IMG/VR virus record: IMGVR_UViG_3300043449_001802
Coordinates: 1 to 38,557 of that record
From: a virus
DNA: 38,557 nucleotides
Reading direction: 5' to 3' (one strand)
Part shown: in pieces, positions 2,938 through 38,557 of the stretch
Layout of the letters: every line of letters starts with the position of its first letter
Position numbering within the stretch: the stretch's first letter is position 1
Position numbers and translations under genes: made by a program
The notes under the pieces: generated by a model
Databases searched by the model: none
The model's input: only the letters and a program-made list of their open reading frames with translations
What the model was told of the DNA's origin: nothing

Positions 2938-3683
2938 CCGACAATGAACTGCGCGACATTGGTTGGTGGAGCGGTGGAGTTACAAGCGCCGTCGCTATCA
3001 AAAAACACCTAGAGCAAGGTAACAAAACTTTAATTTTTTTCTGTGAAACTGGTAACCACCATCACGACAACCAGCGTTTTTTGAAGGCTTGTGAAAAATG
3101 GTATGGACAGGAAATCATAACCCTACGTTCAAACCGTTTTAAAAACGTCGAGGAAACAATAAGATACTCAAAATACATCAATGGGCCCGATGGTGCGAAA
3201 TGTACAAGATACTTAAAAAAAGATTTGCGAATTGCCCTAGAAAAAATACTGCCATATCGAAAGCAAATCTTTGGTTTTGAATTTGAGCAGAAGCAAATTT
3301 TGAGGGCAAAAAGATTTGAGGAGCAATATCCAGCATCAAACGGAACTTTTCCTTTAATCGAAGCTCAGTTAAGTAAACTAGATTGCATGGATCTTTTGAC
3401 AAAAGAAGGCATTGAACTTCCAGCAATGTATCGACTTGGTTATTCAAATGCGAATTGCATAGGATGTATTAAGGGCGGCATGGGTTATTGGAACAAAATC
3501 AGAGTCGATTTTCCAGAGGTCTTTGCTGCTTTTGCAAAGATTGAAAGGGAAATCAATGGCGCAATTTTGCGTCAAAAAAACAAAAGAATTTATTTGGATG
3601 AGCTGGACCCTTCCGCTGGGCGCCATGAGTCTATTGCATTGCCGGAATGCGGAGTCCTTTGTCCGGTTGAATTTTTAGAATAG
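2934..3683 (+). CDS. PAPS-reductase-like / adenine nucleotide alpha-hydrolase family protein
   Basis: The 249-residue protein starts with an ATG overlapping the methyltransferase stop. It has the PP-loop signature SGGVTS at residues 13-18, as in PAPS reductases and related ATP-pyrophosphatases, and a Cys pair in a GCIKGGMGYW segment towards the C-terminus. Phage members are common, but their substrates are mostly unknown. Relatives such as DndC act in DNA phosphorothioation, though no other Dnd genes are visible. Coupling to the methyltransferase suggests a DNA- or nucleotide-modification role; this is inference. Confidence 0.8.
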   Translation: MTDNELRDIGWWSGGVTSAVAIKKHLEQGNKTLIFFCETGNHHHDNQRFLKACEKWYGQEIITLRSNRFKNVEETIRYSKYINGPDGAKCTRYLKKDLRIALEKILPYRKQIFGFEFEQKQILRAKRFEEQYPASNGTFPLIEAQLSKLDCMDLLTKEGIELPAMYRLGYSNANCIGCIKGGMGYWNKIRVDFPEVFAAFAKIEREINGAILRQKNKRIYLDELDPSAGRHESIALPECGVLCPVEFLE

Positions 3684-3695
3684 AAAGAAAGATCA

Positions 3696-4238
3696 ATGAG
3701 CGACGAATTGCGCGATAAACTTGAGAATGACTTTAAAGCCATGAGCGCGGCGTTTGAGGCGTTGAGCCTTGAGCGCGATATTTTTCGTGACGCCTTGCTA
3801 GTACAAAATGAGAACCTGGTCAAAGCGACGGCAAATTATAATCGAATCAATGAAGAAAAAAACAATCTTAACGAACAAGTTGAACAGTTAAGAGTTCAAT
3901 TAGCTGGTTGTGGAGTTGCTGCTTTACAAAACACAGAATATTCAAAAAAAGATCGTGCTAAAAAAGGCGTTTATGGATGGAGTCAAAGTTATCAAGACGT
4001 ATGCGATGCGGTAGATCGAGAGATTGAATACCGTGCCGCCGCAGAAAAGCTGGCCGAGGCGCTTGAATTTTATTCTCACAAAAAAAGCTATTCAATGATT
4101 GATGAAGGGCGAAACTATAACGTCGAATACGTTTGTTATGAGTTAAATCCTCAAACTTATAATGACGACGAATTGGGAACATTGGCCAAAAAAGCCCTGG
4201 CCGAATACCGCGAGAAATTTCCGAAGGTGAAAAAATGA
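3696..4238 (+). CDS. Hypothetical 180-aa coiled-coil protein
   Basis: Preceded by GAAAGA. Residues ~1-70 are strongly heptad-like (coiled coil). A central KKGVYGWSQSY segment and a C-terminal helical part ending in ALAEYREKFPKVKK follow. The two halves look like separately evolved modules of the kind often shuffled among phage early genes. No catalytic motif is visible. Confidence 0.75.
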   Translation: MSDELRDKLENDFKAMSAAFEALSLERDIFRDALLVQNENLVKATANYNRINEEKNNLNEQVEQLRVQLAGCGVAALQNTEYSKKDRAKKGVYGWSQSYQDVCDAVDREIEYRAAAEKLAEALEFYSHKKSYSMIDEGRNYNVEYVCYELNPQTYNDDELGTLAKKALAEYREKFPKVKK

Positions 4239-7345: not shown

Positions 7346-7621
7346 ATGAAAATGAGCGAAAAAGATCGCGATTCCTTCAAGGCAAAATTTTGGCTGACAA
7401 GATCAAAAAACCTAAAGGCCGAGCGGGATGTTTTGCTTGAACAGGTTAAAACACTGAGGCAAGCCCTTGAGCCTTTTGCAAAACTTGCTGAGGTTTATTC
7501 AAACGAAGCTCTGACAAAACACAAAACCCAGCCTCTTCTTTTCAGTGTCCTAGGTGAAAAAGTCGTTGCCGCTCGACTTGCCTTCAGTTCAACATCAAAC
7601 TTCAAATTTTCTGGGATGTAG
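7346..7621 (+). CDS. Hypothetical 91-aa protein overlapping the tRNA
   Basis: Starts 4 bases after the small membrane gene. Its first half is charged and helical, with LEQVKTLRQALEPFAKLAEVY, a layout like other phage heptad proteins in this window. The final codons, ending at TAG 7619-7621, run into the acceptor and D-arm of the downstream tRNA gene, so the two share 10 bases. Confidence 0.7.
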   Translation: MKMSEKDRDSFKAKFWLTRSKNLKAERDVLLEQVKTLRQALEPFAKLAEVYSNEALTKHKTQPLLFSVLGEKVVAARLAFSSTSNFKFSGM

Positions 7622-7687
7622 CCAAGTAGGTAAGGCAGCGCACTGTTAATGCGCCCACCGCAGGTTCGAGTCCTGCCATCCCAGCCA
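7612..7687 (+). tRNA. tRNA-Asn(GTT) with encoded CCA
   Basis: A full cloverleaf is readable: acceptor TGGGATG (7612-7618) with CATCCCA (7677-7683); D-stem GCC/GGC; anticodon stem GCGCA/TGCGC around loop CTGTTAA with anticodon GTT; T-stem GCAGG/CCTGC around TTCGAGT; discriminator G and CCA at 7685-7687. It is the only tRNA found and would read AAC/AAU codons. Its 5' end overlaps the preceding CDS, so it must be processed out of the early mRNA. Confidence 0.95.
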
Positions 7688-14185: not shown

Positions 14186-15322
14186 ATGAAAATTCACAAT
14201 GCAAAACAGAAACCCGCCCGTTTTTTCGGTCTTCATATGGCCGAGGGCGTGGCTGAGTATCGTGAAGAAGGCCAACAGCCCTATCGAATTTTTGTGGGCG
14301 AGGAAACGCTCAAGGAAATGGATCCAACCTACGAAGGCTGTCCAGTCTATGTCATGCACGTTGATGAGGTAAATCTCGACAACTTGCAAACCGAAGCCGA
14401 TGGATACGTCGTAAAAAGTTTTTTCAATAAAGCTGACGGCAAGCATTGGGCTGAGTTCATCATTGTTAGTGATAGGGCTCATGAGGCGCTTCGCGGTGGA
14501 TGGAAATTATCAAATGCTTACATTCCAAAACAGATGGGCCCTGGTGGACAGTGGCATGGTGTAGACTTTTCAAAAGAGATTACAGATGGAGTCTATGAGC
14601 ACTTGGCTATTGTTCCAAATCCTCGTTACATGGAATCCATTGTTTTGACGCCCGAAGAATTTGCAAAATACAATGCCGATAAAGAGGCAGAGCTTAAAAA
14701 GTTGTCAAACTCACAAGGAGAGAAATCAATGTTCAGTTTGTTCAAAAAGCAGAAGGTTGAAAATTCTGCTGAATTGGTTGAGATGTCCGTTGTTTTGCCG
14801 AAAAGCAAAATCGAAAGAACTGTTGCCCAGCTTATTAACGAAGCCGATGCAATGGAACACGCGAAGAAAAACGATGATATGGTCGCCCATCCTGAAAGCC
14901 ATGTTCTCGTTGGTAAAGAAAAAATGAAAATCAACGACCTCATAAAAAAGTATCAAGATATGTGCAACGAGCTTGAGGTCATGAAAAAAGAAAAAGAAGA
15001 AAAAGAAGCCGTAAAAGATGATGCCGATGCCGCTGTTAAGGAAATGAAAAAAGACGATGACGACGCAGGTGCGGCAAAACACGAGGAAGAAGTTCCCGCT
15101 GTTAAAAAAGTAAACGACGAAGTTCCCGCCGATGATAAAGAAGCCCTCAAAAAAACCCTTGAGCTTGCAGAGCATGAGGTTTTGGAGATGGAAGGCAAAA
15201 AGAAAAATAACTTCGAAAAATTGAAAAATGCCGAGCAACGAGCGCGTGATTTTGAAGTAGTCCGCGTGGAATTGTCCGAAGACAAGGTCGCTCGCGGTAA
15301 ATCACGTTACGGAAGCAATTAA
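14186..15322 (+). CDS. DUF2213-like prohead protease/scaffold fusion
   Basis: A 378-residue protein in the position of the prohead protease. The N-terminal half has the DUF2213-like look: RIFVGEETLKEMDPTYEG, PVYVMHVDEV, then GWKLSNAYIPKQ and YEHLAIVPNPRY, with a His and a Ser available for catalysis. From about residue 265 the sequence becomes almost pure Glu/Lys/Asp/Ala coiled coil, as expected for an internal scaffold removed during maturation. Which Ser/His/Asp act in cleavage cannot be settled by eye. Confidence 0.78.
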   Translation: MKIHNAKQKPARFFGLHMAEGVAEYREEGQQPYRIFVGEETLKEMDPTYEGCPVYVMHVDEVNLDNLQTEADGYVVKSFFNKADGKHWAEFIIVSDRAHEALRGGWKLSNAYIPKQMGPGGQWHGVDFSKEITDGVYEHLAIVPNPRYMESIVLTPEEFAKYNADKEAELKKLSNSQGEKSMFSLFKKQKVENSAELVEMSVVLPKSKIERTVAQLINEADAMEHAKKNDDMVAHPESHVLVGKEKMKINDLIKKYQDMCNELEVMKKEKEEKEAVKDDADAAVKEMKKDDDDAGAAKHEEEVPAVKKVNDEVPADDKEALKKTLELAEHEVLEMEGKKKNNFEKLKNAEQRARDFEVVRVELSEDKVARGKSRYGSN

Positions 15323-29134: not shown

Positions 29135-31450
29135 ATGAAAAAGCCGATTGCAATTACCCTTTTCCTGACAGTCGCGATCGCTTTTGCAGCGTGGGCGGCA
29201 GATGTTAAAATTTCGGAACTGCCCGCTGGGACTGGCGCCTCTGCAACCAGCGCAGATGTTTTCCCATATGTTTCTTACCCGACCAAGGTCACAAAAAAAA
29301 TGACCTTGTTCGACTTGGTGAATGTTCCGATTTTCCAAACGACATTTGTTAAGACTGCCGATCTAGGAACTTTAACCGAGGACACTTCATCGGTTTTGAC
29401 TTTAACCGATTGGACGAATGCAACGGTCGGATCACCTAAAATTGAAGTAAAGCAGGCGACAGCCTTGCAGTCTGGCTACTTGCTTTCAAGCGATTGGACT
29501 ACCTTCAATAATAAACAGGATGCCCTGACTTTTACCGCTCCCTTGGTAAATACTTCAAATGTTGTTACTTGTGATGCGGCGTCAGGCTCGCAGGCGGGAT
29601 GTCTTTCCTCTACGGACTGGACGACTTTCAATAATAAACAAAATGCCCTGACATTTGGAAACCTAACAGACGTTGGAACGGATGGAATTTCCGTTACTGG
29701 TGGGACTGGCTCTGTCATCGGATCTGGCACTTCTATTAGCCAACACGTCGCTGATTCTTCGCACAATGGATATTTGTCATCAACTAATTGGTCTACTTTT
29801 AATAATAAAGCAAATAGCGGAGCGAACTCGGACATTACCTCGCTATCTGGAATCACTGGCGCTATTTCTACGCCTACTTATATTGACATGAACACGAGTC
29901 CAGGCGCGGTCACAGTAAGCGGTGGGCGATTGTATTGGGATTCAACTGGGACGCTTGCGATTGGGATGAACTCAGGAACATTCCATCAGAACGTAGGCGA
30001 AACCATTTTTGTCTATGGAAAAGCGACGGACACGATCACGGCTGGTCAGCTTATTATGCGCGATGGAGTTGTCGGAGCGTCCGGCGCGATCAAAATTAAA
30101 CCTGCCACGTCTGGGCTAACAAATCCGAACGAATTGGTCGGCGTAGCGACTCAAGATATTGCATTGAATAATTTCGGGCGCGTTACCGCTTTCGGTTACT
30201 TGGAAGGAATTAACACGAGCGGCGCATCGGCTGGACAGACCTGGGCCGATGACGATGAATTGTGGTACAACACTTCTGGCAGCGGTTTGATGACCAATGT
30301 AAAACCATCGGCTCCAACGCAAAAAACTAGCATTGGAAAGGTAATCAATGCTGGCTCGGGCGGCTCTGGCAAAATGTTTGTTAACCTTGTTCGTGGTTCT
30401 ACTCTGGGCGGAACGGATTCAAACGTACAACTATCAGCATCGCCCGCGAATAATTCTTTTATTACCTACGACTCCGCACTCGGATATTGGAAAGACGCAA
30501 CGGCCTCAGCATCAACGGCGCTTCTCGATGTATTTACTGGTGACTCTGGCTCGGGCGGCGCGAAGGGCTTAGTCCCTGCGCCTGCGGCTGGAGATGCTGC
30601 GGCAGAAAAATTTTTAAAAGCTAATGGCTCTTGGTCGGCAGTCACTTCCGCTTTAGTTAATCCAATGACGACATTGGGAGATCTTATTGTAGGAGGAGCC
30701 TTGGGCGTTCCGACTAGGCTCGGTATTGGTGCAAGTGGAACAGTCCTTGTTTCAAATGGTTCAACGGCAAGTTACGCAAGCCTTAAAGGTAATTCTACTT
30801 ATCTAAAAGCGCCAACGGTTCAAAAATTTACTTCTGGTAGTGGTACTTATACAACGCCGACAAATCCAAGTCCGCTTTATATTAAAGTTAAAATGGCTGG
30901 CGGTGGTGGTGGTGGTGCCGGTGGTGGTACGGCAAGTTTAGGAACTGGCGGTACAGGTGGAAACTCAACCTTTGGTTCCTCTTTGTTAACTGCTAACGGC
31001 GGTTCGGGTGGTGTCGGTAACGCCGCAGGTGGAGCTGGTGGAACTGTTACAGTAAATAGTCCGGCTATAAACGTCCATGCGATTGCAGGCATTCAGGGCA
31101 GCGCAGCCGGAACAACTTATCAAGGTGGGCATGGTGGTGTCGGTGGTGGCACTCCTCTCGGCCCTGGTGGTTCAACTGGTGGCTCTACAACGGCAGCGGC
31201 AAACGTGGGCATAGCTGGCACCACTAACACCGGAGCAGGTGGTGGTGGCGCTGGACATTTGTCGACCGGTGGATTTTCCGGTGGTGGCGGCGGAGCTGGT
31301 GGTTATATCGAAGCAATAATTGCCTCACCAAGTGCCACTTATGCTTACGCAGTGGGCGCGGCTGGTACTGCTGGAACTGCTGGCACAAGCGGCAACGCGG
31401 GCGGCGCTGGTGGTAGCGGGATTGTTATTGTGGAAGAGTATTATCAATAA
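29135..31450 (+). CDS. Large tail fibre/adhesin with signal-peptide-like N-terminus and Gly-rich tip
   Basis: Of 771 residues. It starts MKKPIAITLFLTVAIAFAA followed by WAAD, which looks like a cleavable signal peptide (basic n-region, hydrophobic core, AxA site), rare for a cytoplasmically assembled fibre. Residues ~25-70 resemble fibre attachment modules (VKISELPAGTGASATSADVF). Three copies of an S-x-W-x-TFNNK repeat follow (~110-230). The last ~180 residues are a glycine-rich tip (GGGGGGAGGG and similar), a pattern known from adhesins such as T-even gp38 that bind receptors through Gly-rich loops. Confidence 0.8.
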   Translation: MKKPIAITLFLTVAIAFAAWAADVKISELPAGTGASATSADVFPYVSYPTKVTKKMTLFDLVNVPIFQTTFVKTADLGTLTEDTSSVLTLTDWTNATVGSPKIEVKQATALQSGYLLSSDWTTFNNKQDALTFTAPLVNTSNVVTCDAASGSQAGCLSSTDWTTFNNKQNALTFGNLTDVGTDGISVTGGTGSVIGSGTSISQHVADSSHNGYLSSTNWSTFNNKANSGANSDITSLSGITGAISTPTYIDMNTSPGAVTVSGGRLYWDSTGTLAIGMNSGTFHQNVGETIFVYGKATDTITAGQLIMRDGVVGASGAIKIKPATSGLTNPNELVGVATQDIALNNFGRVTAFGYLEGINTSGASAGQTWADDDELWYNTSGSGLMTNVKPSAPTQKTSIGKVINAGSGGSGKMFVNLVRGSTLGGTDSNVQLSASPANNSFITYDSALGYWKDATASASTALLDVFTGDSGSGGAKGLVPAPAAGDAAAEKFLKANGSWSAVTSALVNPMTTLGDLIVGGALGVPTRLGIGASGTVLVSNGSTASYASLKGNSTYLKAPTVQKFTSGSGTYTTPTNPSPLYIKVKMAGGGGGGAGGGTASLGTGGTGGNSTFGSSLLTANGGSGGVGNAAGGAGGTVTVNSPAINVHAIAGIQGSAAGTTYQGGHGGVGGGTPLGPGGSTGGSTTAAANVGIAGTTNTGAGGGGAGHLSTGGFSGGGGGAGGYIEAIIASPSATYAYAVGAAGTAGTAGTSGNAGGAGGSGIVIVEEYYQ
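29472..29815 (+). repeat. Three diverged repeats in the fibre gene
   Basis: Near 29472, 29598 and 29767 the gene encodes SGYLLSSDWTTFNNKQ, AGCLSSTDWTTFNNKQ and NGYLSSTNWSTFNNKA, two of them continuing into DALTF or NALTF. The core DNA TTCAATAATAAA also repeats. Such short repeats are common in phage fibre shafts and can recombine. Confidence 0.85.
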
Positions 31451-31459
31451 GGAGGTCGC

Positions 31460-31588
31460 ATGAAATGGATTTTAGCAATCATTTGTCTGTTTGGAGCTTC
31501 GGGCTGTGCTACTCACCTGATGCAAAACTGCGAACAGCAAGGCGCGAGTCAATACTATCACTGTGAGGCCGCTTACCTTCACTTCTGA
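31460..31588 (+). CDS. Small lipoprotein, 42 aa
   Basis: A GGAGG lies directly upstream. The product begins MKWILAIICLFGASGCATH: a lipoprotein signal with a lipobox-like ASGC at 13-16, leaving a mature peptide of ~27 residues with two more Cys (QNCEQ, YHCEA). It is an outer-membrane lipoprotein candidate, possibly a very small o-spanin-like or surface protein, at the start of the lysis cassette. Confidence 0.7.
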   Translation: MKWILAIICLFGASGCATHLMQNCEQQGASQYYHCEAAYLHF

Positions 31589-31596
31589 GGTGAATC

Positions 31597-31836
31597 ATGC
31601 TTGAGCTGGTGAAAGACTACTGGCCTGTCATGGGTGGTTTTATTTCTCTTACCGTCTGGCTAATTCGCCAAGAGGGAAAAACCCTTAACTGCGAGCGAAG
31701 ACTCGATCACTTAGAAATGCAGGTCGATAACTTGCAAAGCGCCCTTGTTAAAGAATTGAACGAGGTGAAAACGGCGCTCGCTCGGATTGAAGGAATACTT
31801 CAGGGCCATCGCGAGGCCAGGAGGCCCGATGATTGA
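31597..31836 (+). CDS. Lysis-region membrane-anchored coiled-coil protein (XhlA-like or i-spanin-like)
   Basis: Of 79 residues, with GAGGTG upstream. One hydrophobic N-terminal segment (~8-24, PVMGGFISLTVWLI) is followed by a heptad-rich tail (CERRLDHLEMQVDNLQSALV). This N-in membrane anchor with a coiled coil resembles holin accessory proteins such as XhlA, or inner-membrane spanins. The two cannot be told apart by sequence alone. Confidence 0.65.
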   Translation: MLELVKDYWPVMGGFISLTVWLIRQEGKTLNCERRLDHLEMQVDNLQSALVKELNEVKTALARIEGILQGHREARRPDD

Positions 31837-32134
31837 CTTGTTAAAACATTCGATGTCGGCTTTACTGATCTCTCTGATCGGATGGTTCTTAAAACTGAAA
31901 GGGAATAAAATGGAAAAAGAAATTATCGGCGGCGATGTTGGTCCTGAAACCCATGTTGACCTAAAAATTAAAGACGGCGCGATTGTCGTTGAAGTGGCCT
32001 ACAAAGGCACTGACGGATTCGCTACGGTTCAAGCTGGCCTATTGCCCGAGGCGTTCCTCGATAAACTGAAGGCCCTCATCCCTGGCACTTTCGACGATAT
32101 TGCGATCGAGGCAACTAAAGCCGCGATCAAGTGA
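31829..32134 (+). CDS. Membrane-anchored lysis-region protein with possible internal start
   Basis: ATG 31829 has AGGAGG 6 bases upstream and gives 101 residues: one TM segment (MSALLISLIGWFLKL), then a soluble beta/helix domain starting EKEIIGGDVGPETHVDLKI. A second in-frame ATG at 31910, preceded by AAAGGGA, would give the soluble part alone (74 residues), so two products may be made, as in some holin/antiholin genes. The family is unknown. It overlaps the preceding gene by 8 bases. Confidence 0.65.
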   Translation: MIDLLKHSMSALLISLIGWFLKLKGNKMEKEIIGGDVGPETHVDLKIKDGAIVVEVAYKGTDGFATVQAGLLPEAFLDKLKALIPGTFDDIAIEATKAAIK

Positions 32135-32478
32135 CGAATCAGGAATCGGCAGACGCACTCAAGGAAGCGGCCAAAAAAATCGGCTCGGCGGCCACCTTGG
32201 AATACCTTATGGCGATTGCTCCCTGGGTGCGTTTGCCAGTCATTTATCAGGTCTTTAAATGGCTAATCGAGTTTATTTTATCGACAGCAATTAACAAAAC
32301 AGAGCTTGGAGCGTTCTTCCTTTTCATTGACGTTAGAACCTCCATGCAGGGTCGAGAATTTATTGAAGCCGCGCAAAAAAACAGGCAGGCTCAAATGAAT
32401 GGAACCCAAAAAGAAAAACTTACAGCCGAGCGCAATCTTATTGATAGTTTTCGTGCTTTTGTTCGCTTTACTTCTTAG
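32131..32478 (+). CDS. Lysis-region protein with one TM segment (holin candidate)
   Basis: Of 115 residues. The GTG start overlaps the previous stop. A central hydrophobic segment (VRLPVIYQVFKWLIEFIL) is followed by FFLFIDVRTS and a charged helical tail. Its position before a lipoprotein and endolysin suggests a holin or i-spanin. The lipoprotein gene starts inside its 3' end in another frame, a layout reminiscent of Rz/Rz1. Confidence 0.55.
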   Translation: MTNQESADALKEAAKKIGSAATLEYLMAIAPWVRLPVIYQVFKWLIEFILSTAINKTELGAFFLFIDVRTSMQGREFIEAAQKNRQAQMNGTQKEKLTAERNLIDSFRAFVRFTS

Positions 32479-32773
32479 CTCGTGCGCCTCCTCGCCTCCG
32501 GCCATCCCAGTTTGTACGGAAATCACTTTGAATCGCGCTTATTGTGTGAATACGATAACGAGCGATGAGTTTTACATCGATGACGAGCATCCTTTCAATG
32601 GCTCTACATATTGGGAGATGCGGCCAACGATGGTGCTTTTGCCATTCTCAAGCTGGATTGAGCTCAAGCGATGGATCATTAAAGAATGCGCGGTGACTCG
32701 AGCTTGCGATGAGGCTGTGAGCTCGTGGGATCGAACTTTAAAAACTGTTGACGATATTACGAAAGGAAAATGA
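32399..32773 (+). CDS. Lipoprotein, possible o-spanin
   Basis: Of 124 residues. A basic N-terminus (KKKNLQPS) is followed by a hydrophobic helix and the lipobox LLLSSC, then a Pro-rich start SSPPAIPVC and later EMRPTMVLLPFSSW. After cleavage it would be an outer-membrane lipoprotein of ~100 residues, longer than Rz1. It overlaps the 3' end of the previous gene by 80 bases in another frame, as Rz1 does with Rz. The start at 32399 is chosen as the signal peptide begins there. Confidence 0.65.
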   Translation: MEPKKKNLQPSAILLIVFVLLFALLLSSCASSPPAIPVCTEITLNRAYCVNTITSDEFYIDDEHPFNGSTYWEMRPTMVLLPFSSWIELKRWIIKECAVTRACDEAVSSWDRTLKTVDDITKGK

Positions 32774-33486
32774 TGGGAGACTTTTTTAAAAACGCATGGC
32801 AACAGTGGCAGGATTTAAAAAACAAGCAAAATGCCTCGGCCGAACCCATGCCGCAAAAATCCGAACCAAGTAAGCCAGAGCCGGATTTAAATAAGGTAGC
32901 TCCTGTCCCTTTAAAAACGGCTGTAAAAACTTGCCCGAGAACTCCCGCGGAATACGCTGCAAAATACGCCGCAGCCATCGTAAAGCCCGACAAGCTAGAT
33001 TATTGTAAGGCGAAAGCGAAACTGCTTGAAAGCTATCGTAAGAACTTTTACGAGCCCGTGGCTCAAGCTGTTGGCTGCCCTTGGTGGGTAGTGGCCTGCA
33101 TCCATTTACAGGAATGCGGCGAGGATGTGGGAGTTTTTAAAGCGGTTTTACATAACGGCGAAAAAATCGTTGGGACTGGCAAAAAAACAAAACTGGTCCC
33201 AAAAGGGAAGGGCCCTTTCACGACTTGGGAATTAGCCGCCATCGATGCTTTAGGCGGGAAAAACGCTCTAGTAAAAAAATCATGGGACGTTGGAAGCGCC
33301 TTGCAGTTTTTAGAGGTTTTCAATGGGCTAGGATATCGAGCTCATGGAATTTCAAGCCCGTATCTGTGGAGCTATACCGATCAATACTCCAAAGGCAAAT
33401 ATGTTGCCGATGGTGTTTGGAGTGCGACAGCCGTGAGCAAACAACAAGGCTGCGCGGCCATAATGAAGTGTTTGGGAATTGTTTAA
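32770..33486 (+). CDS. Endolysin (lysozyme/transglycosylase-like)
   Basis: Of 238 residues. An N-terminal charged and Pro-rich region (~1-60) precedes a catalytic-like domain. PWWVVACIHLQE (104-115) places a likely catalytic Glu at 115, in the IHxxE pattern of a phage lysozyme-like family. GTGKKTKLVPKGKGPFTTWE, LEVFNGLGYRAHG and SPYLWSYTDQYSKGKYVADG follow in the order I recall for that family. It should cut peptidoglycan at lysis. No signal peptide is seen, so it needs the holin. Confidence 0.82.
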   Translation: MMGDFFKNAWQQWQDLKNKQNASAEPMPQKSEPSKPEPDLNKVAPVPLKTAVKTCPRTPAEYAAKYAAAIVKPDKLDYCKAKAKLLESYRKNFYEPVAQAVGCPWWVVACIHLQECGEDVGVFKAVLHNGEKIVGTGKKTKLVPKGKGPFTTWELAAIDALGGKNALVKKSWDVGSALQFLEVFNGLGYRAHGISSPYLWSYTDQYSKGKYVADGVWSATAVSKQQGCAAIMKCLGIV

Positions 33487-33500
33487 AAAAAGGAAAAAAA

Positions 33501-34121
33501 ATGGAAGCATCAATTCATTGCAAATATGATCAATTATTAAATCCAAAAAAACTTAAGGATCATCCAAAAAATAGAAATAAGCACAGTGACAGTCAACTTG
33601 ATCGACTTTCTAAACTTTATCAAAGTCATGGCATTCGGCACCCAATTATTGTTTCAAAAAAAAGTGGTTTTATTGTTGCTGGTCATGCACGAAAAATGGC
33701 AGCGCTCAAAGCGGGAATTTCTGCAGTTCCTGTTGTTTATCAAGAATTTGAAACCGATGAACAAGAATATGCATTTATTCACAGTGATAATGCTATTGCC
33801 GCATGGGCTGAATTGGATCTTGCTGGAATAAATGCAGATCTCGGCGATCTCGGTCCGGATTTTGATATCGACTTGCTGGGCATTAAAAACTTTACGTTGG
33901 ATCCTGCGGATCTTCCCGTTTTCAATCATGAAAAGGGAAAGTCAAATCGCGAACGCTATGAGGAATACAATCCAATGACGGTGCGAAAACTAGAAGTAAT
34001 TTTAAGCGAAGAAAATTATGGATTAGTCATCGATGGTTTAGATAAAAAAATGGAACGCGACAATTTAAAAAGCTACACAGAGGCAGTCGTTGCTTTTTGC
34101 AAAGAAGAGCTTACAAGGTGA
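33501..34121 (+). CDS. Solo ParB/Srx-like domain protein
   Basis: Of 206 residues, starting at ATG 33501 behind AAGGA. The N-terminal ~120 residues have the ParB-like fold pattern: LNPKKLKDHPKNRNKHSD, HGIRHPIIVSKKSGFIVAG, then GHARKMAALKAGI and EYAFIHSDNAIAAWAELD, FDIDLLGI. This is the type usually fused to phage adenine/cytosine methylases, but no methylase domain follows; instead there is a charged ~80-residue tail. It is coupled to the TET/JBP-like gene (4-base overlap), so it is probably a DNA-binding or targeting partner for modification. Confidence 0.78.
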   Translation: MEASIHCKYDQLLNPKKLKDHPKNRNKHSDSQLDRLSKLYQSHGIRHPIIVSKKSGFIVAGHARKMAALKAGISAVPVVYQEFETDEQEYAFIHSDNAIAAWAELDLAGINADLGDLGPDFDIDLLGIKNFTLDPADLPVFNHEKGKSNRERYEEYNPMTVRKLEVILSEENYGLVIDGLDKKMERDNLKSYTEAVVAFCKEELTR

Positions 34122-34957
34122 AAAAAATTTACCTAAAAAAACGCACCGTTCAACGTACTGAATATATTGCCAAGGGAGCCGAGTTAAATCATGTTTCACA
34201 GTTAATTAGCGATCGAAATGTTGAGTTATATGATGAGGCAGATCCATCTAAACCTATCATCATTTTAAAAAATAAAAATGACTTTGGTTGGCTCTTCCAG
34301 GAATTGAAAAAAATTAAAAAATGGGACTCTGGTACTCGAAACAATGGCAACCGAAGCATTTCACGTGTTTATGGATATCAGCCCCGAATGCCTCCTCGTC
34401 GTCAGGACTATTGTTCGATGGCAAGATTTTACAAGGATTATCCTCAAATTTTTGATGATATTACCTCATGGATTCGATCAGCAGAAAAAGACTTCGAGGA
34501 AATTTCTCCTGAGCTTTATTTGCCACAAAAGGAACTTGTGCGAGGTTCAGTTTTAGAAGAATGGCGAATTGCAGGAACATCCTTCACGAGCGGAATTATT
34601 AATAAATCAAATCCGCTTGGATATCACACGGACACGGGCAACATAAAAAACGCTTGGTCGATGATGCTAGTTTTGCGCGCTGGCGTTGATGGTGGGCAGT
34701 TAGTAGTGCCAGAATTGGATGTTGCGCTAAGCTTGGATCATTGTTCACAGTTATTTTTTGATGGGCAGTCCCTCATCCATGGCGTGACGCCGATTAAAAA
34801 AACTTCTGCAGATGGCGAGCGCTTTAGTGTGGTTGCCTATAGCTTAAAGCAAATGTGCAAATGCCTTCATCCGGTTCAAGAAATTGAAAGAGCTCAGGTG
34901 CGAGCGGTTGCAGCTATGAAGCATCGTCGCGAGCTTCAGGAAAAGGCAAAAGAGTGA
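34118..34957 (+). CDS. TET/JBP-like Fe(II)/2-oxoglutarate dioxygenase
   Basis: Of 279 residues, with a GTG start overlapping the ParB-like stop. A double-stranded beta-helix core is readable: HTDTGN gives His170 and Asp172, FFDGQSLIHGVTPI gives His221, and ERFSVVAY gives Arg235 for the oxoglutarate carboxylate. The order GYHTDTGN, GGQLVVPELDVAL, LIHG is that of the TET/JBP group, which oxidises 5-methylpyrimidines in DNA using iron, oxygen and 2-oxoglutarate. Phage TET enzymes are known to make 5-hydroxymethylcytosine from 5-methylcytosine. The C5-methyltransferase at 2107 would supply the substrate and the next gene may decorate the product. A generic 2OG hydroxylase cannot be excluded. Confidence 0.8.
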   Translation: MKKIYLKKRTVQRTEYIAKGAELNHVSQLISDRNVELYDEADPSKPIIILKNKNDFGWLFQELKKIKKWDSGTRNNGNRSISRVYGYQPRMPPRRQDYCSMARFYKDYPQIFDDITSWIRSAEKDFEEISPELYLPQKELVRGSVLEEWRIAGTSFTSGIINKSNPLGYHTDTGNIKNAWSMMLVLRAGVDGGQLVVPELDVALSLDHCSQLFFDGQSLIHGVTPIKKTSADGERFSVVAYSLKQMCKCLHPVQEIERAQVRAVAAMKHRRELQEKAKE

Positions 34958-35913
34958 AAATTGCTTATCGGAGAATGTCTGGACCTATTGGATTATCTAA
35001 GTCTGAAACAGGGACAAGAGGACTTTGGCTTGAAAAGCGCGAGGCCTTCATCTCCGAGCTGTGGCGACGCGGGCATACCGTTGCCATTGTTAACAAGCTA
35101 ACTAAACCAACACAAAACGAGCTAATAACTCCTGCGCCCGATTTAGCTCGAGTTTTTGAAAGCGATTTACTTTTTGTTGAATTTGGTGGCGGTAATAAGA
35201 TTTTTTTTGAGGAAGACTTAAAAGCTACCGTTGAAATTGTGGAAAATTTTAAAGGACCAATAGTTTTTTTAAACGATGATCCCGATCTGCCGATGGTTTG
35301 GGATATGATTTCACAACAGTCTCAAAAAAAATTTGTTTGCTGGCATAATTCAATTCGCCCTGAGCTTTTTGGACGTGGTCTAAAAGTAAAGATTCCCGTC
35401 AAAGACTTTCCATTTTCCGCTTTGCTTCCCACTAGACCTCCGCGTAATGTTGATAGTTTTGACTTGGTTTATATTGGGCGTCCCGATGGGCGCGGGGCTG
35501 TAGTTCGCGAGCTTATCGCTGCTGGGATTGACTGGAAAATTTACGGCAGGCAAAAAGAATGGTGCGATTTTGGAGTGCGTGTAAGCGATCCTCCACCACA
35601 GGCCCAGCGTCCGGACTTTTATGCGGGTCAAATGGCCTCACTTGTTTTGGCAGATAAAAAGCATAAAAAAATGGGATGGCGAACGGGCAGGGCTTACCAC
35701 GCGCTAGCAGCTGGGTGTCCGGCAATTGTTGAAAATGATCATGATGCTCTTCGCGAGTTTTTACGTTTTAACGGTGCGCCTAGCCTCAAGCCAATTATTG
35801 AGGCGCTTAAAAATCCATCTTTTCGTCAAGAAATAACGCTTCAACAACAAGGTCTTATGATTGAGCGCGATCGTCCAATTGTCGAAGAGCGATTCGCAGA
35901 GGTTGGACTTTAA
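34954..35913 (+). CDS. GT-B-like glycosyltransferase
   Basis: Of 319 residues. The GTG overlaps the dioxygenase stop. The C-terminal third has FDLVYIGRPDGRGAVVREL, then WRTGRAYHALAAGCPAIVEN and a D-H-D segment, as in the sugar-nucleotide-binding half of GT-B enzymes. The N-terminal half has alternating strands and helices (AFISELWRRGHTVAIVNKL). Given the operon, its likely acceptor is hydroxymethylcytosine in DNA; a surface-glycan acceptor is an alternative. The sugar donor cannot be told. Confidence 0.75.
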   Translation: MKIAYRRMSGPIGLSKSETGTRGLWLEKREAFISELWRRGHTVAIVNKLTKPTQNELITPAPDLARVFESDLLFVEFGGGNKIFFEEDLKATVEIVENFKGPIVFLNDDPDLPMVWDMISQQSQKKFVCWHNSIRPELFGRGLKVKIPVKDFPFSALLPTRPPRNVDSFDLVYIGRPDGRGAVVRELIAAGIDWKIYGRQKEWCDFGVRVSDPPPQAQRPDFYAGQMASLVLADKKHKKMGWRTGRAYHALAAGCPAIVENDHDALREFLRFNGAPSLKPIIEALKNPSFRQEITLQQQGLMIERDRPIVEERFAEVGL

Positions 35914-36368
35914 TGAAAATAGGATATGATTGTGATGGAGTTTTGGCCGAAGGTCCACCCAAAAGCCCAGTGCGCTGGGGCAAAATGAACGGCGAACAGC
36001 GTCAACAAAGGCGTCTTGATTTGCTTCAATTTTACGCCAATGCCCGACCAATTTTGAAAAACCTTCCTGGCCCGATTGCCGTCGTTATTACTGCTAGAAA
36101 AGCCACGCCTGAAATTGAAAGAATTACCCGCCAATGGCTTGAGACCCATCACGGCGAGTTGTTTTGCGGGCAACTGGAGCTTTTTAATGGTACGCGCAGC
36201 ATTGAAAACGTAGTTGCATTTAAGGCGCAAAAGATTCTTGAGCATGGCTGCACGGACTTCATTGAGGACAATTTGCAGGTTGTACGAGGCCTCAGAGCGC
36301 TGTTGCCACGAGTTAAAATATGGCGTCTGCAGGTTCGACGTGGCGGGTTAATTGATCTAAGTCTTTAA
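35913..36368 (+). CDS. HAD-superfamily phosphatase/nucleotidase-like protein
   Basis: Of 151 residues, directly overlapping the glycosyltransferase stop. It has the HAD motifs: DCDG (Asp6 nucleophile, Asp8), VVITARK (Thr60), Lys104 and FIEDN (Glu118/Asp119). It is short, with almost no cap, and probably dephosphorylates a small substrate such as a nucleotide or sugar phosphate. As last gene of the modification operon it may supply or clear a sugar-nucleotide or modified-nucleotide intermediate; this is inference. Confidence 0.75.
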   Translation: MKIGYDCDGVLAEGPPKSPVRWGKMNGEQRQQRRLDLLQFYANARPILKNLPGPIAVVITARKATPEIERITRQWLETHHGELFCGQLELFNGTRSIENVVAFKAQKILEHGCTDFIEDNLQVVRGLRALLPRVKIWRLQVRRGGLIDLSL

Positions 36369-36378
36369 ATAGACTCAG

Positions 36379-36974
36379 GCGCAAGCCGTCAAATTGCATT
36401 TAATCAAAAAAAAACAAGCGGCATGTTCATTTTTAGGGCAGGATTTGAAAAGAAAAATGAAACCGCCCAGGCTTGCGCAAGGGCGGCTCATAAAATCACC
36501 GCTCGGAGTAGAAGCTCCTAGGTGATTCGCAACATGCCTTAGAAAATGTCGCTTGAATTAGTTCTAACGAATTCTGATTCATTCTTCAATTTCAAAAAAA
36601 GGTAATGCTGCAACGGTAGCCAAAAGCTCACCAATTCCTTGCTCGCTGCAATATGCGAGAAGAACGCAGGTAAACACTCCTGGGCCTACGGATTGGATCC
36701 GTAAAGCTGTGGCAAGGTGAGGGAAACATGAGCCTTCGAGGATTGAAAAATTGAAGGTTTGGTCAGAGTGATGCCTGGCTTGATACGAGAAAGTCATGTT
36801 GCGAGTGCAGACGCTAAGTCCACCGAGCTCTATTTAAATGGAGCTAAAGAGAAACTTATTTTGCATGGTCCGGAGGCTTACCCTGAGGCGAAATCAGGGT
36901 GCTAGGGACTTGATCCGCTAATCCTCGACCCAAGTTTCCATTAAGCAGAAGTGCGAGATGGAAATTAAGGTCGA
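36379..36974 (+). ncRNA. Candidate large structured noncoding RNA (~600 nt)
   Basis: The 645 bases between the HAD and nuclease genes have no convincing ORF but many strong helices. In the 5' domain, GGCATGTT (36420-36427) pairs with AACATGCC (36531-36538) and encloses three hairpins: CATTTTT/AAAAATG, CCGCCC (36463-36468)/GGGCGG (36481-36486), and AATCACC (36494-36500)/GGTGATT (36521-36527) with inner GGAG/CTCC. The loop of the second hairpin, GGCTTGCGC (36470-36478), is complementary over 9 bases to GCGCAAGCC (36379-36387), a pseudoknot. In the 3' domain: CTCGC/GCGAG (36642/36655), TACGGA/TCCGTA (36687/36698), AACATGA/TCATGTT (36725/36794) around CCTTC/GAAGG, AGCTCT/GGAGCT (36826/36840), ACCCTGA/TCAGGGT (36880/36894), and TCGACC/GGTCGA (36925/36969) nested around TTTCCAT/ATGGAAA (36935/36958). 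One closing T-G pair (36831/36840) is valid only in the + transcript. Size and setting recall ornate phage RNAs such as GOLLD or ROOL, but I cannot assign a class. Confidence 0.65.
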
Positions 36975-37013
36975 ACTATGCCCAGAACTTGAAACTTAAA
37001 AAGGGTTAAAAAA

Positions 37014-37556
37014 ATGCCATTCGTTGAATCGGAGCATTGGATTTTAGTATCGGAGATTGATCGACGCCTTGTTAGTCGAAGAATTCAGCAAATTTTGCAT
37101 GACGCTAGATCGGGCAAGTGGAAAGTGCCAAAAAACGATAAGCGTTTTTTATCACCAGGCGAAGCGATTCAAAGCGGACAGCGCGGTGAAATTGCTTTAT
37201 CCCGCTACTGTGATTTGAAATGGGCAAATGAGTATGGCTTAGGAAACAATATGAACGGAGACTTGGAGTTTGGCATTGAAGTGAAGGCAACAAACTATAG
37301 CGATGGGAATTTATTTTGCTCGCAAAAAACTTTAAACGATTATTTGCACAGATCTGGGAATACGCCCATTGTTTTGGCCCGTACCGGACTATGGCCTGTG
37401 GTGGAGTTTTGCGGATTTATTTACGCAAAAGAAATAAACAAGTTTCCTTTTTATAGGACAAATCAACGGCACAATATCGGATATTTGGTCCCACAAGATA
37501 AGCTAAGAGCCATGTGCGAGTTTAAACGGCTCGTGGCTCATTGGAAGCTTATTTGA
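37014..37556 (+). CDS. PD-(D/E)XK-like nuclease candidate
   Basis: Of 180 residues, starting right after the structured RNA with AAGGG upstream. The core reads GQRGEIALSRYCD, then GDLEFGIEVKAT with an Asp and ExK, the usual PD-(D/E)XK active site, followed by LFCSQKTLNDYL and NTPIVLARTGLWPVVEF. It may be an exonuclease-like partner for Bet, a homing-type nuclease or a restriction-type enzyme. Small PD-(D/E)XK homing enzymes exist, and its place next to the RNA makes that worth testing. Confidence 0.55.
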   Translation: MPFVESEHWILVSEIDRRLVSRRIQQILHDARSGKWKVPKNDKRFLSPGEAIQSGQRGEIALSRYCDLKWANEYGLGNNMNGDLEFGIEVKATNYSDGNLFCSQKTLNDYLHRSGNTPIVLARTGLWPVVEFCGFIYAKEINKFPFYRTNQRHNIGYLVPQDKLRAMCEFKRLVAHWKLI

Positions 37557-37608
37557 ATTTTGATGTCGTTTTTTTATGTTTATTTTGGCTTTAGTGGAGT
37601 TCTTTTAA

Positions 37609-37643
37609 AGCGCCCTCAGGGCGGCGCTCAAAGCTTTTTGAGC
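37609..37643 (+). other. Two overlapping hairpins downstream of the nuclease gene
   Basis: AGCGCC (37609-37614) pairs with GGCGCT (37623-37628), and GCTCAAA (37626-37632) pairs with TTTGAGC (37637-37643). They share three bases, so they exclude each other. Only short T runs follow; a weak or bidirectional terminator is possible. They lie in the 365-base gap at 37557-37921, which holds no gene. Confidence 0.35.
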
Positions 37644-37763
37644 TTAAAACAAAATAAAGTATTAATGAATTTCAAAAAAGTTATCATAACAAAATTAACG
37701 AGTTTATAAGCCTAAATAAAAATACTTTTTTCTCAAAAAAATGCGTTTTTTCGCAAATATTTT

Positions 37764-37792
37764 TTGCCTCAAAGTGAGAAAGCCTTTATTTT
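37764..37792 (+). promoter_or_regulatory. Possible sigma70-like promoter for the recombination operon
   Basis: TTGCCT (37764-37769) and TATTTT (37787-37792) are separated by 17 bases and each match four of six consensus positions. The flank is very AT-rich, and a GTTAT-C-ATAAC dyad lies upstream at 37680-37690. The predicted start would be near 37800, just before the structured leader. Weak by sequence alone. Confidence 0.35.
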
Positions 37793-37798
37793 CTTTTT

Positions 37799-37905
37799 AA
37801 ACCAAGTGGCCCTCCCGTTATTGGTTTTTATCAAAAAAAATACCTCCCTGGCATTGGTTGGTTGGTTGTTTCTTGGTTTGAAATTCAACCATCTGGTGCC
37901 AGGGA
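37799..37905 (+). promoter_or_regulatory. Structured leader with competing hairpins before the Gp157-like gene
   Basis: TCCCTGGCA (37845-37853) pairs perfectly with TGCCAGGGA (37897-37905), followed by TTTTT and then the AAGGAG ribosome site at 37911-37916. Inside it TGGTTG pairs with CAACCA. AAACCAAG (37799-37806) can pair with TTGGTTT (37821-37827, followed by TT) or with CTTGGTTT (37872-37879), and the latter would disrupt the inner hairpin. This resembles an attenuator-like switch of transcription or translation. Confidence 0.5.
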
Positions 37906-37921
37906 TTTTTAAGGAGTAGTC

Positions 37922-38470
37922 ATGTCTGAAGGAATCCGGTCTCTGAGCGACATTATTAACGAAGCGCAACTCATTATGGACCAGCTTTTTGAATCGGGCG
38001 GCGAAATCACGCCCGAAACCGAGGCTCTGTTGGCTGGTTCTAAATTAGAGCTCAAACAAAAGATCGATGCGTATGGTTTTATTATCGATCAATTTAAAGC
38101 TCGAAAAGACTACGCCATTGGAAAAACAAAAGAATGGGGCAAGGTCGCCGATCAATGCGAGCGAGCACTTGAATACCTTGAATCAAAAGTTAAAACAGCC
38201 CTGACGACTCTTGAGCTATCTGAAATTCATGGCCACGAATACACTTTCAAATTGCGAGCGAATCCACCTTCGGTCGTGGTTGAAAACGAAGCGGCCGTCC
38301 CTGGCGATTACATTGTTACTGAAACAAAAACCACGACTCGAGTCGATAAAAAGAAAATTTTGGAAGTTTTGAAAACTGGCGCGAGCATCCCAGGCGTCCA
38401 TCTTGAACGTGGAATTAAATTGATTTCAAAAGTATCAGAGCGAAAATTGATCGGCGGTCAAAATGAATAA
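37922..38470 (+). CDS. Siphovirus Gp157-like protein
   Basis: Of 182 residues, with AAGGAG upstream. It has the Gp157 pattern: SLSDIINEAQLIMDQLFES, ALLAGSKLELKQKIDAYGFI, a coiled region with ALEYLESKVKTAL, and a C-terminal KLRANPPSVVVEN with PGDYIV. Gp157 proteins sit with phage recombinases and may help load or regulate them. It is the first gene after the leader and is coupled to bet across the contig join. Confidence 0.88.
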   Translation: MSEGIRSLSDIINEAQLIMDQLFESGGEITPETEALLAGSKLELKQKIDAYGFIIDQFKARKDYAIGKTKEWGKVADQCERALEYLESKVKTALTTLELSEIHGHEYTFKLRANPPSVVVENEAAVPGDYIVTETKTTTRVDKKKILEVLKTGASIPGVHLERGIKLISKVSERKLIGGQNE

Positions 38471-38557
38471 GGAAATCACGGTTTCAAATCAAATAAGTGA
38501 AGATGAGGTCCAGCTTTTAAAAGATACAGTCTGTCGAGGGGCCACAAATGATGAATT
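38431..38557. repeat. 127-bp terminal direct repeat, copy 2 (circular-contig join)
   Basis: Identical to 1-127. Removing one copy gives a circle of 38,430 bp in which the Gp157-like and bet genes are continuous. Confidence 0.95.
38463..38557 (+). CDS. bet: 5' end of bet (duplicate of the gene at 33)
   Basis: The first 31 codons of bet, cut by the end of the window. It is the same gene as at 33-995 and should not be counted as a second copy. Confidence 0.93.
   Translation, partial: MNKEITVSNQISEDEVQLLKDTVCRGATNDE

Follow-up and report, generated by a model that had tools for sequence, protein, structure and literature searches.

The interval between two ORFs of the + strand in the phage record IMGVR_UViG_3300043449_001802 (IMG/VR; 38,557 bases, analysed in full and referred to here as the window) contains no gene and has a folding stability on the + strand in excess of that expected by chance. 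The reading preferred here, which is judged to be about evenly balanced between right and wrong, is that the interval holds an unclassified structured RNA of the phage which is co-transcribed with the downstream ORF (ORF 37014) and probably acts as RNA itself. The candidate is supported by the folding statistics, and the features concerned are listed in Table 1.

Within this interval of 645 nt, the longest stop-free frame on the + strand has 52 codons, and the sole listed ORF reaching 60 aa is one of 72 aa on the minus strand. Searches of ten stop-free frames against Pfam and PHROG gave nothing significant (best chance match, E = 0.047), and the possibility of a hidden or broken gene was rejected on these grounds. 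The initial annotation, which had described about 600 nt lacking a credible gene and placed between two + strand genes, was correct on both points. Its description of the sequence as AT-rich fits the region only loosely, the GC content of the scanned windows being 42–49%.

Table 1. Features of the gene-free interval and of the ORFs flanking it, with positions in the window
Feature	Position	Strand	Basis
Gene-free interval, candidate structured RNA (whole)	36369..37013	+	Folding statistics, no protein family, no Rfam match above cut-off
5' domain (predicted)	36415..36555	+	z -5.76, 0/200 shuffles; overlaps best window of the record
Hairpin CCGCCC-AGGCUUGCGCAA-GGGCGG of the 5' domain	36463..36486	+	Pair probability averaging 0.89 in the full-length ensemble
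Second hairpin of the 5' domain, AAUCACC...GGUGAUU, containing an inner stem	36494..36527	+	Helix list, domain fold
GCGCAAGCC, 9-bp perfect complement of 36470–36478	36379..36387	+	Helix list; putative pairing
Segment AUUCGCAACAUG, with two predicted alternatives: pairing within the 5' domain, or a 12-bp pairing with 36795–36806	36525..36536	+	Near-isoenergetic folds
3' domain, possibly closed by CUGGGC (36680–36685) / GCCCAG (36980–36985)	36680..36985	+	Folding (z values in text)
Long 3' hairpin UCGACC...GGUCGA, inner stem AGUUUCCAU/AUGGAAAUU	36925..36974	+	Pair probabilities 0.97–0.99
Upstream ORF, 151 aa	35913..36368	+	No significant family; stop codon directly adjoins the interval
Downstream ORF (ORF 37014), 180 aa, phrog_18407 (unknown function)	37014..37556	+	Profile match, motif reading

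The N-terminus of the protein encoded by the upstream ORF (KIGYDCDGVLAEG) reads like that of a HAD-type phosphatase, which is a sequence impression only. For ORF 37014, a GE-x-A ... E-V-K motif suggests a PD-(D/E)XK nuclease fold, and both G-E-x-A and E-V-K were kept in an alignment with a distant Bdellovibrionota homologue. No match to this protein was detected in PDB, Pfam, NCBIfam or PADLOC, and an AlphaFold2 model made without an alignment was uninformative (pLDDT of 34). A DNA-modification cluster (33225–35913) lies upstream, encoding a ParB-like protein (phrog_498/620), a TET/JBP-type 2OG-Fe(II) oxygenase (34097–34957; PF12851, 1.9e-14) and a glycosyltransferase-like protein (34954–35913) with a sub-threshold Pfam match. 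The oxygenase was present in only one of 50 related phage records (G025, L125:10423–11136). No sigma-70-like promoter was found on the + strand of 31400–38557, a result to be read with the caution that promoters of Bdellovibrio phages may not fit the consensus, and no terminator-like site was found within the interval, which together is consistent with read-through transcription.

The minimum free energy (MFE) of the + strand of the interval was -208.1 kcal/mol, compared to -174.9 ± 7.3 kcal/mol in 100 dinucleotide shuffles, giving a z of about -4.6 with none of the shuffles as stable; an estimate from 20 shuffles (z = -6.5) overstates this value. The folding signal of the minus strand was weaker, with the + strand ahead both at full length (z -6.5 vs -3.3, 20 shuffles each) and in the 5' domain (z -5.8 vs -3.8). 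When the whole record was scanned on both strands in 960 windows of 160 nt, the most extreme was 36401–36560 on the + strand (z = -7.1; runner-up -4.7). Windows within the flanking ORFs were near a z of 0, and the structure signal therefore spans the whole interval without continuing past its ends. Perfect helices had initially been thought to be far more numerous than expected by chance. Counts of Watson-Crick helices with a minimum length of 6 bp (52 vs 47 ± 7 in shuffles) or 7 bp (17 vs 12 ± 4) contradict this, the number of helices of 6–8 bp being near chance, and a clear excess was seen only from 9 bp upward (5 vs 0.9 ± 1.0, reached in none of 200 shuffles). The original observation is real for stability and overstated for helix counts. 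Unpaired bases were 51% A, slightly above the shuffles (49.0 ± 1.4%; four of 100 as high).

The 5' domain is the firm part of the predicted structure. In the predicted fold, a closing stem of 21 bp, which is interrupted by a bulge of 5 nt and has the arms CAAGCGGCAU / AUGUCGCUUG and UUUUUAGGGCA / UGCCUUAGAAA, encloses the two hairpins listed in Table 1. For the sub-domain 36413–36558 the MFE structure nearly equals the centroid (z = -5.8, none of 200 shuffles as stable). The segment complementary to 36379–36387 sits in the loop of the first hairpin, and a pseudoknot between the two, or a pairing alternative to the hairpin, is possible. It should be noted that this single 9-bp helix is not significant on its own, with 0.9 such helices being found per shuffle, and as the hairpin loop has only 12 bases, the full set of nine pairs may be incompatible with the hairpin stem.

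The structure of the 3' half is less certain than that of the 5' domain, with several competing folds predicted, and the helix that possibly closes the 3' domain is weak in the full-length ensemble. Its stability nonetheless exceeded that of all shuffles, both for 36677–36990 (z -4.6, 0/100) and for 36820–36990 (z = -4.35, 0/200). The long 3' hairpin has an internal loop resembling a UAA/GAN motif (UAA at 36942–36944, GAG at 36955–36957), a match read from the letters which could be due to chance. A fold that retains the 5' domain (-205.0 kcal/mol) competes with that containing a long-range helix, 36527–36536/36795–36804 (-208.1 kcal/mol). Many nested helices across two domains had initially been described. 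Several of the strongest helices are mutually exclusive, and the helices are not all nested within a single structure.

These competing folds bear on a second explanation, possible though doubtful, in which the interval is a long cis-acting 5' leader of ORF 37014 that controls translation or the end of the transcript. The two states of such a switch, which would turn the nuclease-like gene on or off, would be a closed 5' domain and the pairing of 36525–36536 with 36795–36806, and the folds differ by only 3 kcal/mol, although near-isoenergetic alternatives are common in predictions for 600 nt. The predicted structure stops some 30–40 nt before the start codon of ORF 37014, as the initial annotation had stated with its figure of about 40 bases, and AAGUUUC (36932–36938) can pair with GAAACUU (36991–36997) beside the probable ribosome-binding site. 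This site (AAAAAGGG), however, is left open, amid A-rich sequence, when the full length is folded unconstrained, a leader of 600 nt would be very long and no promoter-like site was found just upstream.

The head and tail genes of the phage parallel those of Bdellovibrio phage phi1422, with protein identities of 30–58%. The portal protein shows 55% identity to its phi1422 counterpart, which points to a phage of the Bdellovibrio type. From the parallel in the head and tail genes, the probable host is Bdellovibrio or a bacterium closely related to it. A related portal gene lies inside a 177-kb Bdellovibrio contig (L167, Bdellovibrio sp. UBA4095, DFXZ01000008.1), which suggests that phages of this portal-related group can be prophages. 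The record begins with a RecT-like gene (1–995) and finishes with a Gp157-like gene (37922–38557), and since these are neighbours in the related phage G003, the record probably represents an almost complete genome in circularly permuted form.

No relative of the interval was found by blastn in phage and plasmid collections. The portal query yielded 80 related viral contigs and 10 genome loci, and searches of the corresponding records with blastn and nhmmer, including nine genomes with related portals, gave nothing. The sequence was absent from 50 related phage records taken as wholes, and nhmmer with the --max option over 2.0 Mb of related loci also returned no relative (best E 4.4). The 368 genomes searched from the Bdellovibrionota, the phylum of a Bdellovibrio prophage carrier, yielded no relative. 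The one match among them (E 7e-4) was rejected as chance in a set of that size, since by our reading it lies within a coding gene resembling alanyl-tRNA synthetase. When ORF 37014, the TET gene and the Gp157 gene were used as neighbour queries, either no loci or distant loci lacking the RNA were obtained, and a covariance model built from the single sequence of the 5' domain retrieved nothing but that sequence. Pattern scans of IMG/VR with pseudo-proteins from three stop-free frames found none, and a scan with the 3' loop TAASCAGAAGTSCGAG gave 46 matches, none otherwise similar to the RNA and several being parts of other repeated loci; these scans were partial, as short exact patterns would by our estimate miss most relatives below about 80% identity. 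The absence of the RNA thus holds for the near kin of this phage, not for the biosphere. The candidate RNA is an orphan represented by one sequence, and folding statistics are the sole basis of the claim.

Structured gaps were also seen in the related phages. The two best conserved (L126:13195–13731 and L136:18515–19066) form a 540-nt block of the tail region with no single long frame and with counterparts in about 25 loci. The block was rejected as an RNA in favour of a conserved two-ORF tail gene, and probably encodes a tail assembly chaperone through programmed frameshifting; its counterpart in phi1422 overlaps gp57–gp58. The other structured gaps showed no similarity to the RNA. In G003, an unrelated gene-free structured stretch of 786 nt (L129:3067–3852) lies directly upstream of the Gp157/RecT genes and is possibly another large RNA or a set of paired operators. 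On its + strand (3200–3700) the MFE and centroid structures are identical over 501 nt; the whole stretch gave z -4.5 on the minus strand (20 shuffles) and the core z -2.4 to -2.5. In phi1422 (L006, NC_019525), a 633-nt stretch annotated as empty (14523–15155) precedes tRNA-Pro (15181), with a fold of only z -1.9. It contains what is seemingly a second, degenerate tRNA-like sequence (near 14855–14945) which was called by neither ARAGORN nor Rfam.

That the interval is non-functional or a decayed insertion, stable by chance, is unlikely. Such a reading would fit the lack of any relative, the absence of the interval from related phages and the weaker structured gaps that those phages also possess. 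Against it, none of 100–200 shuffles was as stable as the whole or its domains, and the interval holds the most extreme of the 960 scanned windows. Compact phage genomes also rarely keep 645 idle bases.

It is quite unlikely that the interval is a DNA element, such as a replication origin or a packaging or recombination site, whose inverted repeats mimic RNA helices. The minus strand also beats chance (z -3.3 and -3.8), and in a circularly permuted record the interval would have the modification genes on one side and the Gp157/RecT recombination genes on the other. However, the + strand is clearly more stable and several of the main helices include G-U pairs and close off complex loops. Neither direct repeats nor iterons were found in the interval, which argues against both an iteron origin and a type III antitoxin array. 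A second gene-free gap (37557–37921) precedes the Gp157 gene and carries an inverted repeat, CCCTGGCA ... TGCCAGGG. It gave z -3.8 on the + strand and -3.5 on the minus strand and is perhaps an operator or early promoter region.

The candidate was further compared with known classes of RNA. When the region was compared by cmscan with the full set of 4227 Rfam families, at E values up to 10, the only matches were two sub-threshold models of bacterial sRNAs, neither of them large or ornate; GOLLD, ROOL, OLE, HEARO, introns, RNase P and tmRNA were rejected for want of a match at this level. Membership of GOLLD or ROOL, which had been raised at first, thus found no support in Rfam. Searches with the two models gave no match in the window, and in 39 related records nothing scored above either cut-off. 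ROOL RNA is phage-borne, measures about 570–600 nt and has an elaborate predicted fold with pseudoknots (PMC12286853). The candidate is like ROOL (RF03087) in size, in being phage-borne and in its elaborate predicted fold, but it has no RF03087 match; that search produced no positive-control match, though the cmscan of all Rfam to E 10 also gave none. The tRNA island which frequently, but not obligatorily, accompanies ROOL was not seen, the only tRNA being tRNA-Asn at 7612–7687, some 29 kb from the candidate. A further trait of ROOL is the RNA-only multimer (nanocage), and multimers are also formed by GOLLD. GOLLD RNA is large and phage-borne with a two-part architecture (PMC12286853). The candidate shares these traits with GOLLD (RF02032), its two parts being predicted, but gave no match to the conserved 3' region and has no tRNA island beside it.

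HEARO and OMEGA-type RNAs resemble the candidate in lying directly upstream of a nuclease-like ORF. In contrast to these, the candidate has no Rfam match, and ORF 37014 shows no HNH/RuvC family match and looks like a PD-(D/E)XK protein; no ORF of the IscB/IsrB/TnpB type was found beside the candidate. Type III toxin-antitoxin systems likewise have an RNA upstream of a small gene (about 180 aa here). The candidate, however, has no direct repeats and ORF 37014 has no PADLOC, Pfam or NCBIfam match; neither a tandem-repeat antitoxin RNA nor a ToxN-type endoribonuclease was found at the locus.

An unrecognised or degenerate ribozyme intron with ORF 37014 as its mobility nuclease is highly improbable: the size and the adjoining nuclease-like ORF with its ExK pattern would suit one, and PD-(D/E)XK homing endonucleases do occur in group I introns, but no group I or II catalytic-core model matched the region even at E 10, the stop codon of the upstream ORF is directly at the interval and the flanking ORFs are complete, unrelated genes and not halves of one gene, so there is no intron in the usual sense.

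Under the preferred reading of a structured RNA that is itself active, the interval would encode an RNA of roughly 600 nt on the + strand, probably as part of a transcript running from the DNA-modification genes into the nuclease-like ORF 37014, and this RNA would work as RNA and not as messenger. Its two separately folding parts (36415–36555 and approximately 36680–36985) would be connected through pairings that are long-range or alternative, an arrangement known from large phage RNAs. The RNA would be transcribed, released from the transcript and act as a free RNA or an RNA-protein particle, with the product of ORF 37014 as a possible partner. A bolder version, considered quite unlikely, is that the RNA belongs to a new class of large structured RNAs of phages, with no relation to GOLLD, ROOL, OLE and HEARO, and works with a nuclease of the PD-(D/E)XK type, the DNA of the phage being modified by a TET/JBP-type oxygenase and a glycosyltransferase. 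If this were true, the nuclease could be guided, scaffolded or restrained by the RNA. Very large structured RNAs of phages are known in only a few cases, with functions that are still unsolved (PMC12286853). Another such RNA, situated next to a nuclease-like gene and a DNA-modification operon of a phage that infects predatory bacteria, would if confirmed be a useful new case.
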